From contig NZ_VANU01000001.1 of assembly GCF_005771535.1 (NCBI RefSeq), positions 248,001-312,000 on the forward strand: DNA of 64,000 nt, given 5' to 3'. This document shows positions 34,627 through 38,357 of the stretch, piece by piece (position 1 is the stretch's first letter; each line of letters begins with the position of its first letter). Origin of the DNA: Arcobacter arenosus (GTDB lineage: Bacteria; Campylobacterota; Campylobacteria; Campylobacterales; Arcobacteraceae). The notes under the pieces were generated by a model. It saw only the letters and a list, made by a program, of their open reading frames with translations, was not told the DNA's origin and ran no database searches. The translations under genes and the position numbers were made by a program.

Positions 34627-35835
34627 ATGGAAGAGAAGATTAAAGAAGCCCTAGCTGAAATTCAAAGAGGAACAGCTGAAATAATTGATATAGAAGGTAT
34701 TGAAAAATTACTAAAAAACTATTATGAAAACGGTGAGAACTTCTATGTTAAAGCAGGATTTGACCCTACTGCACCAGACTTACACCTAGGACATACTGTA
34801 TTAATTCAAAAGCTTGCAACATTCCAAAAATTTGGAGGAATTGTACAATTTTTAATTGGAGATTTTACGGCAACAATTGGAGATCCAACAGGAAAAAGTG
34901 AAACAAGAAAAGTTTTAAGTGAAGAGGATGTTTTAGAAAATGCACAATCTTATAAAGAACAAGTTTTTAAAATTCTAGATCCAGAAAAAACAGAAGTGAA
35001 ATTTAATTCAAAATGGTTAAAAGAGCTTGGAACTGGTGGATTAATATCACTTGCGTCAAACTTAACAGTTGCAAGAATGCTTGAAAGAGATGATTTTGCT
35101 AAAAGATATGCTTCAAATACACCAATTGCAGTAAGCGAGTTTACTTATCCTTTACTTCAAGGTTATGATTCAGTTGCAATGGGTACAGATATTGAACTTG
35201 GTGGAACTGATCAAAAGTTTAACTTACTTATGGGAAGAACTTTACAAAAAGCATACAATACAGGTAAACAACAAGCTGTATTAATGATGCCAATTTTAGA
35301 AGGTTTAGATGGTGTTCAAAAGATGTCTAAATCTTTAGGAAATTATATTGGTGTAACAGATAATCCAAACGATATGTTTGGGAAAACTTTATCAATTTCA
35401 GATGAATTAATGTGGAGATATTATGAACTATTATCTTCTAAATCACTAAAAGAGATTGAAGATTTAAAAACTGGTGTGGAAAATGGTTCTTTACACCCTA
35501 AAAAAGTAAAAGAAGAACTTGCAATGGAGATTGTTGAAAGATTTCATGGTGAGGGACAAGGGGAAATTGCAAAAGCTGAATTTGAAAAAATATTTGCTAA
35601 AAAAGATATCCCTACAGATATGCCTGAATATGAAATGACAGCAGGAATTTGGCTTTGTCAGGCATTAGTTGATGCAAAACTTGTTAATTCAACTTCACAA
35701 GCAAGACGTGATGTAAAAGCAAATGCAGTTAGTATAAATCAAGAAAAAGTAACAGATGAAAAACTAAATTTAGAAGTTGGAGAGTATATTTTACAAAAGG
35801 GTAAAAAAAGTTTCGCTAAGATAATAATAAAATAA
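34627..35835 (+). CDS. tyrS: Tyrosyl-tRNA synthetase
   Basis: Charges tRNA-Tyr. The class I HIGH motif is HLGH (53-56) in [12 protein letters not shown], and KMSKS is in [14 protein letters not shown]; the C-terminal S4 domain ([19 protein letters not shown]) is present. The 402-residue length matches the TyrRS type with an S4 tail. It lies 11 nt after spoT, with AAGAGGA as ribosome binding site. Confidence 0.97.
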
Positions 35836-35851
35836 AATAAGGCCAATAATT

Positions 35852-36931
35852 TTGAAAATAGGAAAATATGAAATCAAACATCCAATAATTCAAGGTGGAA
35901 TGGGTGTAGGAATTAGCTGGGATCAATTAGCAGGTAGTGTTAGTAAAGAAGGTGGCCTAGGAGTTATCTCTGGAGTTGGAACTGGTTATTATAAAAACTT
36001 AAGTGAAAATGTTAACATAATTACTAAAAAAGATAAACCAAAAGATGTGGCAAACTTTTATAGTAAAGATGCACTAAAAGAGATTTTTAACAATGCTAGA
36101 AAACTTTGTGGTGATGCCCCATTAGCTTGTAACGTACTTTATGCAATTAATGATTATGGTAGAGTTGTTCAAGATGCCTGTGAAGCAGGAGCAGATATTA
36201 TAATTACAGGTGCTGGATTACCTACAAATATGCCTGAATTTACAAAAGATTATCCAGATGTTGCATTAGTTCCAATTGTATCTTCTGCAAGAGCATTAAA
36301 ACTTATTTGTAAAAAATGGCAAAGATATAACAAAATTCCTGATGCAATCATTGTTGAAGGTCCTTTAAGCGGTGGTCATCAAGGGTTTAAATATGAAGAT
36401 TGCTTTAAAGAAGAGTTCCAATTAGAAAATATTATTCCTCCAGTTATCGAAGAAGCAAAAAAATGGGGAGATATTCCAATTATTGCTGCAGGTGGAGTAT
36501 GGGATAAAAAAGATATTGACAAATTTATGGATATGGGTTGTGCGGGTGTTCAAATGGCTACTAGATTTATTGGTACCTTTGAATGTGATGCAGATGAAAA
36601 ATTCAAAAATGTTCTTCTAAATGCAAATGATGATGATATTAAACTTATGAAATCTCCAGTTGGCTTACCAGCAAGGGGAGTTAGAACTAATCTTCAATGG
36701 TCAATAGAAAATAATACTGCACCAAAAGTTCAATGTATTTCAAACTGTGTAGCTCCATGTAATAGAGGAGTTGAGGCAAAAGCAGTTGGATATTGTATTG
36801 CAGATAGACTTGGAGCAGCTTATCTTGGAGATGAAGATACTGGATTATTCTTTTCAGGTTCAAATGGATACAAGATTGACAAAATTATTTCTGTACATGA
36901 ATTAATGGAAAAACTAACTAAAGGAGAATAA
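35852..36931 (+). CDS. NAD(P)H-dependent flavin oxidoreductase (nitronate monooxygenase family)
   Basis: A FMN-binding TIM-barrel protein related to nitronate monooxygenase and FabK. HPIIQGGMGVGISWDQLAGSV at the start, the GGLGVISGVG loop, VEGPLSGGHQGF with the conserved histidine, and PIIAAGGVWDKKDI followed by GVQMATRFIGTFEC are visible. The 359-residue length is normal. The start is TTG at 35852 with AAGG upstream. Whether it detoxifies nitronates or reduces another substrate cannot be told. It immediately precedes the amidase gene. Confidence 0.85.
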   Translation: MKIGKYEIKHPIIQGGMGVGISWDQLAGSVSKEGGLGVISGVGTGYYKNLSENVNIITKKDKPKDVANFYSKDALKEIFNNARKLCGDAPLACNVLYAINDYGRVVQDACEAGADIIITGAGLPTNMPEFTKDYPDVALVPIVSSARALKLICKKWQRYNKIPDAIIVEGPLSGGHQGFKYEDCFKEEFQLENIIPPVIEEAKKWGDIPIIAAGGVWDKKDIDKFMDMGCAGVQMATRFIGTFECDADEKFKNVLLNANDDDIKLMKSPVGLPARGVRTNLQWSIENNTAPKVQCISNCVAPCNRGVEAKAVGYCIADRLGAAYLGDEDTGLFFSGSNGYKIDKIISVHELMEKLTKGE

Positions 36932-36932
36932 A

Positions 36933-38357
36933 ATTTTTAAAAAATTTATTCTTCTACTATTTCTTATTACTACTATAATATACGCTTCTGATAATCTAAG
37001 GGAAGAGTATAATTCAGCAAGAATAGCTTATTTAAAAGCTGTTCTTAATAATAATCAAGACAAAGAGATACAAAGTTTACAAACCCTTATAAATACGGGA
37101 AAAAAACTAAACCTTAATGTAAATAAATATGAAAAAGAATTAAAAAAATATAATGGTTCTTTGGTTAAGAGTATAAGAATTGAACCTATTAAAATTGAAA
37201 ATTCTAAAAAAATTGAACCTATTAAAATCGAACCTATTAAAGTTGATAAAAAAATTAAACCCATTAAAAATGTAAAAATATCTAAGCACAATGTTAATAA
37301 CTCAATATATTCAATTAAATCTGTAGTTGACGAAAACAATCAAATTATTATAACTTTTAACACAAATGTCACTAAAGATTATGTGAAGTTTTATGAAAAA
37401 AAGATAAAAAATGGTACACAAGATATTTATGAATTAAAGGGTAATTTTAAAGATGCATTTCCAACTAAATTAAAAATTGATGGTGTAAAACAAATAGTTA
37501 TTAAACAAGAAGATAAAAACACTTTAAAGATTTTATTTGAAGATAGAAAAAATTTAAAAACTGTTTATCATGTAAATAAAGACACTATCAAAATTACAGT
37601 ACTTGGTCTAGATAAAAGTTCTACTAAAAAACCTATTGCTAAAATAGCGAAAGAGAAAAAGATATATCTTCCAGGAAAAGGGAAAATTGTTGTTTTAGAT
37701 GCTGGACATGGAGGGAAGGACTCTGGTGCAGTTGGTGGAAAAAATAAATATGAAAAAGTGGTTGTTTTTAAAATAACAAAATACTTAGAATCATACTTAA
37801 AACAAAGAGGATACAAAGTATACCTTACTAGAAACTCTGATAGATTTATTAAAGTAAATAATAGAACAATACTAGCAAATAAAAAGAAAGCTGATATATT
37901 TATCTCAATTCATGCTAATGCTGTTCCAAAATCAAAAGCAAGAGAGATGGAAGGTGTTGAGACATTTTTCCTAAGTCCTGCAAGAAGTGAAAGGGCTAAA
38001 AGAGTTGCAGCATTAGAAAATAAATCTGATGTTAGAAATATGAGTGGTTCTACAAAACAAGCCTTCTTGGAATCATTAAACAGACCAAGAATAACAGCAT
38101 CCCATAAACTTTCAATTGATATTCAAAGAAACATGCTTTATAGTGCAAGAAAAATATATAAAGATGTAGTTGATAGTGGTGTTAGAGAAGGTCCATTTTG
38201 GGTACTTGTTGGAGCTCAAATGCCATCAGTTTTAATCGAAGTTGGATATATAACTCACCCAAAAGAGGGGAAAAGACTATTTTATTCTAAATATCAAAAA
38301 GGTTTAGCTTTAGGTATTGCTAATGGAATCGATGCTTATTTCGCAAAAAATCCTTAA
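36933..38357 (+). CDS. N-acetylmuramoyl-L-alanine amidase with AMIN domain, probable ATT start
   Basis: Cleaves the amide bond between peptidoglycan glycan and stem peptide in the periplasm. The zinc-dependent Amidase_3 domain has VVLDAGHGGKDSGAVG, SIHANAV and SVLIEVGYITHP; an AMIN-like domain (SIYSIKSVVDENNQIIITFN) precedes it, after an Ile-Glu-Pro-Ile-Lys repeat linker. Frames beginning at the first usual start (TTG, 37161) would lack the export signal. In-frame codons upstream encode FKKFILLLFLITTIIYA, a good signal peptide, after an AAGGAG ribosome binding site at 36921-36926 and an ATT at 36933, the only workable start. That gives 474 residues. The 3' end overlaps the convergent Nudix gene by 38 bp. 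Confidence 0.85.
   Translation: MFKKFILLLFLITTIIYASDNLREEYNSARIAYLKAVLNNNQDKEIQSLQTLINTGKKLNLNVNKYEKELKKYNGSLVKSIRIEPIKIENSKKIEPIKIEPIKVDKKIKPIKNVKISKHNVNNSIYSIKSVVDENNQIIITFNTNVTKDYVKFYEKKIKNGTQDIYELKGNFKDAFPTKLKIDGVKQIVIKQEDKNTLKILFEDRKNLKTVYHVNKDTIKITVLGLDKSSTKKPIAKIAKEKKIYLPGKGKIVVLDAGHGGKDSGAVGGKNKYEKVVVFKITKYLESYLKQRGYKVYLTRNSDRFIKVNNRTILANKKKADIFISIHANAVPKSKAREMEGVETFFLSPARSERAKRVAALENKSDVRNMSGSTKQAFLESLNRPRITASHKLSIDIQRNMLYSARKIYKDVVDSGVREGPFWVLVGAQMPSVLIEVGYITHPKEGKRLFYSKYQKGLALGIANGIDAYFAKNP
37179..37248 (+). repeat. Short tandem-like repeats coding for the amidase linker
   Basis: Three near-identical units of about 17-20 nt (ATTGAACCTATTAAAATTGA type, near 37179, 37213 and 37231) encode repeated Ile-Glu-Pro-Ile-Lys segments between the signal region and the AMIN domain. 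All keep the reading frame. Such a stretch could change length by slippage. Confidence 0.7.

Follow-up and report, generated by a model that had tools for sequence, protein, structure and literature searches.

The 64,000-nucleotide stretch of the Arcobacter arenosus genome that we analysed (the window; source genome, 3.13 Mb in 18 contigs) holds, on its forward strand, an open reading frame (ORF) for a nitronate monooxygenase-like protein and, directly behind it, a gene for an N-acetylmuramoyl-L-alanine amidase. The features of this locus are:

35831–36931, forward strand: upstream ORF, nitronate monooxygenase-like (PF03060), with its stop TAA at 36929–36931
36921–36926, forward strand: Shine-Dalgarno site AAGGAG, inside the end of the upstream ORF; AAGGAG-type sites also occur in the near-cognate relatives
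36922–36955, forward strand: predicted RNA hairpin (arms 36922–36932 and 36945–36955), with the Shine-Dalgarno site buried and the ATT in the apical part
36933–36935, forward strand: ATT, putative start codon of the amidase, without a canonical start nearby and conserved in relatives
36933–36986, forward strand: predicted signal peptide (I/fM)FKKFILLLFLITTIIYA, with cleavage after YA judged by eye
36933–38357, forward strand: amidase coding sequence, 474 codons plus stop, with the Amidase_3 domain at residues 253–467
37161–37163, forward strand: TTG, the first canonical in-frame start codon, at codon index 81 from the opening of the frame; not read as the start

The upstream ORF matches PF03060 with 283.2 bits, and the amidase matches Amidase_3 (PF01520) with 159.1 bits against a cut-off of 27, over residues 253–467, which span the catalytic domain. 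The translation of the amidase contains the motifs DAGHGG, SIHANA and LIEVGY, candidates for its zinc-binding and catalytic His/Glu places.

The amidase frame is open from 36918, after a TAA at 36915–36917, through 38357. The original prediction for this DNA had pointed to an ideal AAGGAG ahead of the amidase and to the lack of any in-frame ATG, GTG or TTG until 37161. Both points hold: a 6-nt spacer, AATAAA, separates AAGGAG from the ATT, and the TTG at 37161 is the first canonical codon. The final sense codons of the upstream ORF, GGA GAA (Gly-Glu), overlap the Shine-Dalgarno site, and its stop lies 1 nt from the ATT. The N-terminus was described slightly wrongly: the lysine pair and the hydrophobic stretch are present, but the pair does not directly follow the ATT, being encoded at 36939–36944 after an intervening TTT (codons after the ATT: TTT AAA AAA TTT ATT CTT CTA). 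With the predicted cleavage marked by an arrow, the encoded N-terminus reads (I/fM)FKKFILLLFLITTIIYA↓SDN, a predicted signal peptide that automatic annotation is likely prone to miss.

The start codon across the Arcobacteraceae

Among 150 genomes searched, our own included, the amidase was found in 145, and the loci of 144 were read by eye. For the Arcobacteraceae, 85 of 91 genomes were read, again including our own; outside this count are G019 (a run of N), G031 and G046 (contig end) and G018 (weak match), and the amidase search gave no match in G008 and G036. The comparison with relatives that the original prediction had suggested bears out its proposed ATT start: 59 of the 85 readable family genomes share the ATT at this position, ATC and ATA occur in one each, and TTG (14), ATG (8) or GTG (2) stands at or adjoining the place in other genera. 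The 61 rows with near-cognate codons (ATT, ATC or ATA; hereafter ATH) are spread over 12 genera, including genus g1 with ATT in 15 of 15 genomes read (genus total, 16). G087 has TTG, and G080, counted as ATT, reads ATT then TTG. ATT is not indispensable, as 24 of the 85 family genomes do with a canonical codon there or close by. On the sequences compared, an accidental or erroneous ATT is excluded by the relatives, and a sequencing error, which had been named as a possible refutation, is ruled out for practical purposes by the recurrence of ATT in 59 genomes.

Three alternatives would place initiation elsewhere. In one, translation would begin at a downstream canonical codon (TTG 37161, or the relatives' ATG at RM-YLKAV) and yield a form without a signal peptide. 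Canonical codons do exist, and a gene finder restricted to ATG, GTG and TTG must choose one of them; their position, however, is not conserved (index 81 here; 37, 29, 27 or none in the first 120 codons in congeners), and several families repeat the pattern of a Shine-Dalgarno site followed by a hydrophobic, signal-like N-terminus. We therefore regard a downstream start as very improbable, and the TTG at 37161, whose position is not conserved among relatives, as ruled out for practical purposes.

Another possibility is that the amidase is fused to the upstream protein through frameshifting or stop readthrough, in keeping with the 14-nt overlap of the stop-to-stop frames in the window (36918–36931). 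The relative frame of the two genes is not fixed, however. In 61 of 61 rows the near-cognate start follows the upstream stop after 0, 1 or 2 nt, and the two are in frame in L016 and L021; because the frame differs between genomes, no single recoding event serves all of them, leaving fusion with almost no probability. In the 24 canonical rows, the upstream stop precedes the start by 1–11 nt, except in one row where it follows the start by 11 nt.

Lastly, initiation might occur at some other upstream non-AUG codon (AAA, AAT or AAG), with ATT as an ordinary second or third codon, and the window does offer five open codons before the ATT. The codon before the start nevertheless varies among relatives (AAA, GTT, GAA, GCC, ACC, CCC and others) and is an in-frame stop, TAA, in L016 and L021, so we consider this highly improbable. 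The distance from the Shine-Dalgarno site to the ATT varies among family genomes between 5, 6 and 7 nt. We conclude with little doubt, on comparative grounds, that the ATT at 36933 is the start codon of the amidase.

Near-cognate starts in other families

In family f4, sampled in one genus with 17 of 18 genomes read (G157 has no match), the start is ATA in 15 of 17 (14 tabulated plus L179) and ATT in two, and isoleucine codons elsewhere in the 16 tabulated amidase genes are ATC 192, ATT 98 and ATA 96 (of 386). Family f18, with 21 of 22 genomes read and L211 at a contig end, gives ATT 9, ATA 7 and ATC 3 in 19 tabulated rows; L207 has no canonical codon near the place and L204 is canonical. The genomes G093, G107, G112, G124, G128, G138 and G141 (f4 and f18) were each counted once. 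Nine loci are less clear because canonical codons stand close by: GTG or ATG lies 1–5 codons upstream of the ATH in L180, L183, L187, L188, L206 and L209, and TTG or GTG 4–5 codons downstream in L191, L208 and L216. In L186, a near-twin of L183, the upstream ATG of L183 is ACG and the ATA is kept.

The commonest arrangement in f4 and f18 is GGAGARTAR (upstream Gly-Glu-stop), then 0–4 nt, then ATH. In five loci, the start overlaps the upstream stop, as ATAA (L202, L205) or ATTAA (L198, L200, L206). An uncounted inspection by eye gave ATG, GTG or TTG there or close by in most other sampled families; family f7 gives a mixed picture, and the one genome of f11 has ATA.

Probable selection on the start codon

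We mapped the start codon onto a tree built from the upstream protein of all 85 rows by a quick method that left 22 forks open. The near-cognate versus canonical state changes 4 times on this tree, against a mean of 21.3 in shuffles, and the individual start codon states change 10 times over all 85 rows. One 62-row clade comprises 60 of the 61 near-cognate rows and two canonical rows; the 61st, G034, falls outside it on a long branch. If only the 61 near-cognate rows are considered, 2 parsimony changes suffice for the start codon, a figure conditional on that choice of rows. By comparison, three amidase isoleucine columns that are complete in the same 61 rows (57–58 Ile) require 22, 17 and 19 changes, four further isoleucine columns (33–54 rows) require 14, 7, 10 and 2, the last being the 33-row column, and 23 conserved amidase columns of any residue average 16.3, with two columns at 1. 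With 2 changes against 17–22, the start codon is held far tighter than most codons of the amidase.

These counts bear on a different alternative, in which translation does begin at AUU but the codon regulates nothing: with tight coupling and a strong Shine-Dalgarno site its identity would hardly matter, and the ATT would be a tolerated relic. The canonical codons in 24 of 85 family genomes and the presence of ATA, ATT and ATC together in f18 fit such tolerance. Neutrality, however, predicts recurrent one-base change to ATG, and the two canonical rows of the 62-row clade are both TTG, none ATG; among the near-cognate rows just two changes of the start codon are needed; and f4 has ATA in 15 of 17 rows, although ATA makes up just 96 of the 386 isoleucine codons in 16 genes. 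We judge the relic unlikely and consider it quite likely, from these comparisons, that the ATT has been selected for, not just tolerated.

A predicted closed RNA fold around the start

The predicted hairpin of the window has a folding energy of −9.5 kcal/mol and z −3.1 against dinucleotide shuffles. Rows in the fold tests are related and not independent. In a 68-nt segment compared with synonymous recodings, the 61 near-cognate rows average z −1.22 and the six canonical rows with a script-recognised Shine-Dalgarno site average −1.85. The tightness of those six does not carry over, because by the 52-nt method all 24 canonical rows average only −0.25, against −1.57 for the 61 near-cognate rows. 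For these 52 nt around the start, all 12 near-cognate genera, five of which are a single row, have a negative median z against synonymous versions; genus medians run from −0.23 (g13) and −0.32 (g9), two genera with almost no excess stability, to −3.21, with a median of medians of −1.97. Ordinary genes of the source genome with a Shine-Dalgarno site (n = 300) average +0.26, with 4.3% below −1.9, and the 65 of them with hydrophobic N-termini average +0.44. RNAalifold found no consensus fold in a 35-row alignment of start regions, so that the feature kept would be a closed state, not one exact hairpin.

Other genes with near-cognate starts in the same genome

We compared the amidase with other ORFs in two scans of the source genome. 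The first covered about 840 kb (the window together with 40 20-kb pieces, with 24 kb of overlap and possible double counts). Across its 642 ORFs of at least 150 codons, the first canonical start has a median index of 4 and a 99th percentile of 38; the amidase, at 81, is the largest and the sole ORF at 77 or more. A strict motif list leaves it as the only one of the 642 that combines an index of at least 25 with a preceding ATH or CTG at Shine-Dalgarno spacing. The second scan covered 61 pieces (1.264 Mb, of which 1.24 Mb distinct; 40% of the genome) and 1128 ORFs of at least 110 codons. Here 23 ORFs have an index of at least 40 and four lack a canonical codon in the first 90, so in this set of shorter ORFs the amidase is not extreme by index alone. 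A looser filter passed 14 ORFs, the amidase included, several of which are evidently not genes.

Three further genes of the source genome have widely kept ATH starts, as judged by eye. First, all 21 full-length loci of an ABC permease (PF00528) have ATT, ATC or ATA at the corresponding position, three of them with TTG close upstream (30 loci matched; nine weaker partial matches, L309–L317, were left out). Second, for an HI0933-like flavoprotein (PF03486), 23 of 30 loci show an ATH and lack any canonical codon ahead of the Rossmann motif, and the other seven offer an ATG or TTG. Third, an AEC-type transporter (PF03547) has ATC, ATA or ATT in 28 of 30 loci and ATG in two, with TTG 11 codons upstream in three. 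In this third gene, the congeners L417 and L418 have ATG and ATA, respectively, at the same position, good evidence that translation starts where the ATH stands.

Other candidates fell away. A TsaB-like gene has ATA in the source genome but ATG or TTG in 29 of 29 relatives read, and an S24-like gene has ATA in only 3 of 15 loci (L428–L442) and ATG or GTG in 12. The gene infC, as a possible parallel ATT gene, has TTG in 30 of 30 loci read, among 41 genomes with a match, with an ATG also within the first 26 codons of the frame in 22; the textbook loop in which IF3 controls its own AUU start is thus not seen in the loci read.

Given three more cases in 40% of the genome, ATH starts may characterise a class of genes. 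We put forward tentatively, at somewhat below even chances, that Arcobacteraceae (and, as regards the amidase, two or more further families of Campylobacterales) have a translational regulon defined solely by the start codon: unrelated genes starting with AUU, AUA or AUC (the four named and probably others), selected, jointly tuned by IF3 and coupled to an upstream stop where that stop is close.

Proposed mechanism

A weak start kept in about 60 related species suggests deliberate use to restrain production of the enzyme, and we propose the following. Ribosomes ending the nitronate monooxygenase-like ORF would halt on its UAA, 1 nt ahead of the AUU, and in doing so would open the local hairpin that otherwise masks the Shine-Dalgarno site. 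AAGGAG would then be within reach of the terminating ribosome's 16S rRNA, and a fraction of ribosomes would restart at the AUU, read as fMet by the ordinary initiator tRNA. Since AUU would be a poor match for the initiator anticodon, the kind of pairing that initiation factor IF3 rejects, only a small, IF3-tuned share of ribosomes would proceed. The outcome would be a wall-cutting amidase that is scarce and bound to its operon.

A special initiator tRNA was considered and rejected: the search pattern also permitted AAU, GAU and UAU, yet both initiator-type anticodon arms found in the genome carry CAU. Published work supplies precedents. IF3 represses non-canonical start codons (PMC5472188), further precedents for its rejection of near-cognate codons are given elsewhere (PMC9410913, PMC13009471), and AUU or AUA lowers the output of S. 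aureus reporters (PMC13009471). In E. coli re-initiation, extra IF3 inhibits, less so with a Shine-Dalgarno site (PMC2268962). In C. jejuni, overexpression of AmiA raised dipeptides slightly, and a deletion mutant turned coccoid only in part (PMC6767375).

What the sequences show is the lack of a canonical start, purifying selection on ATT or ATH as a codon, the geometry of stop and start, and an exceptionally tight predicted fold. A benefit of low amidase output would fit the conservation of the codon, the geometry of coupling and the tight fold; fMet, IF3 sensitivity and re-initiation at the AUU are inferred as well. Coupled and IF3-limited initiation as proposed has, in our estimate, moderately better than even prospects. 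The reading as a whole, a weak, selected, upstream-coupled AUU initiation that holds the amidase low, is likely the best explanation.

Comparison with known systems

Non-canonical starts have so far been characterised in very few bacterial genes (PMC5472188). Methods that allow just ATG, GTG and TTG cannot call such starts, and their use is therefore probably undercounted. For instance, the published C. jejuni start-site map has peaks called at ATG, GTG and TTG only (PMC11955535), so near-cognate starts would not have been called. A literature search, with subscription papers mostly outside its scope, found no paper on non-canonical starts in Arcobacteraceae, Campylobacter or Epsilonproteobacteria. 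That a near-cognate start recurs in about 60 species of one family, and in further families too, suggests that selection can favour a 'bad' start codon, and these relatives offer a ready panel for asking whether IF3 level, coupling and start codon jointly set the dose of a cell-wall hydrolase.

Three features of IF3-limited near-cognate starts of the infC, pcnB and sigR kind are present in the amidase: the lack of a canonical start at the N-terminus, a near-cognate codon conserved in relatives and a normal Shine-Dalgarno spacing. With pcnB of E. coli it shares the AUU start, although the gene is unrelated. The AUU of pcnB reportedly serves to limit expression, going by the title of Binns and Masters 2002.

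The likeness to infC lies in the near-cognate ATH start: the gene for IF3 starts with AUU in E. coli, ATC in Streptomyces and AUA in S. aureus, and its start is repressed by IF3 (PMC5472188, PMC13009471). It differs in that infC controls itself via IF3, whereas the present gene encodes a wall amidase and infC has TTG in the loci read. According to a third source, infC and pcnB are the only two AUU genes of E. coli (PMC9410913).

As with sigR of Streptomyces, whose GTC start is repressed by IF3, a rare start is kept, in sigR across one genus: GTC in 32 of 34 species and GTT in two, misannotated in genomes (PMC5472188). Unlike the amidase, sigR has GTC and not ATH, and there is reportedly no evidence of it in other actinobacterial genera; the IF3 effect was measured for sigR (PMC5472188) and is proposed for the amidase. 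The amidase also resembles cvfC1 (AUU) and ccpN (AUA) of S. aureus, which have output lower than with AUG and, as here, a conserved ATH start with a strong Shine-Dalgarno site (PMC13009471). These are other genes in another phylum, and the amidase adds a stop 0–2 nt before the start and a tight fold. The amidase thus joins the known near-cognate weak starts, and what is unusual is its phylogenetic depth and, for the family, its company.

ATT, ATC or ATA at the start of other genes

In the lines below, L numbers are loci of the window's own genome (G000; contigs C1 and C2) or of its relatives.

L262:217-1005 (G000:C1:320217): ABC transporter permease gene, PF00528; relatives L288-L308
L386:7645-8586 (G000:C2:167648), minus strand: AEC-type transporter gene, PF03547; relatives L398-L427
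L276:11422-12570 (G000:C1:611425), minus strand: HI0933-like flavoprotein gene, PF03486; relatives L318-L347

The permease gene has its first canonical start (ATG, GTG or TTG) only at codon index 44, counted from the opening of the reading frame; by eye, ATT, ATC or ATA follows soon after the upstream stop in all 21 full-length loci, with a TTG nearby in 3. For the AEC-type transporter, the start is ATC, ATA or ATT in 28 of 30 loci, and L417 carries ATG at the position where its congener L418 has ATA. In the flavoprotein gene, one of these codons lies immediately 5′ of the Rossmann motif, without a canonical codon, in 23/30 loci, and ATG or TTG is on offer in the other seven.

At the amidase itself, the start region reads ATT TTG in L071 (G080) and GGT TTG in L074 (G087), possibly a switch from ATT to TTG caught midway between these sister genomes.

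Private or sporadic ATA

L287:7037-7492 (G000:C1:827040), minus strand: gene that we take to be TsaB-like; Pfam search without a match; relatives L349-L377
L388:9509-9952 (G000:C2:209593): S24-like peptidase gene, PF00717

The TsaB-like gene has ATA after AGGAG in the window's own genome only, whereas all 29 relatives examined have ATG or TTG close to the corresponding place; its ATA therefore points either to an error in the sequence or to a loss confined to this genome. The S24-like peptidase starts with ATA in the own genome and in L429 and L433, and with ATG or GTG in the remaining 12 loci examined.

Comparison with infC

In contrast to the AUU start of Escherichia coli infC (IF3), the infC genes of L145-L174 have TTG as start in 30/30 loci among the matches listed, followed by AGT in most; an in-frame ATG is also present within 26 codons in 22.
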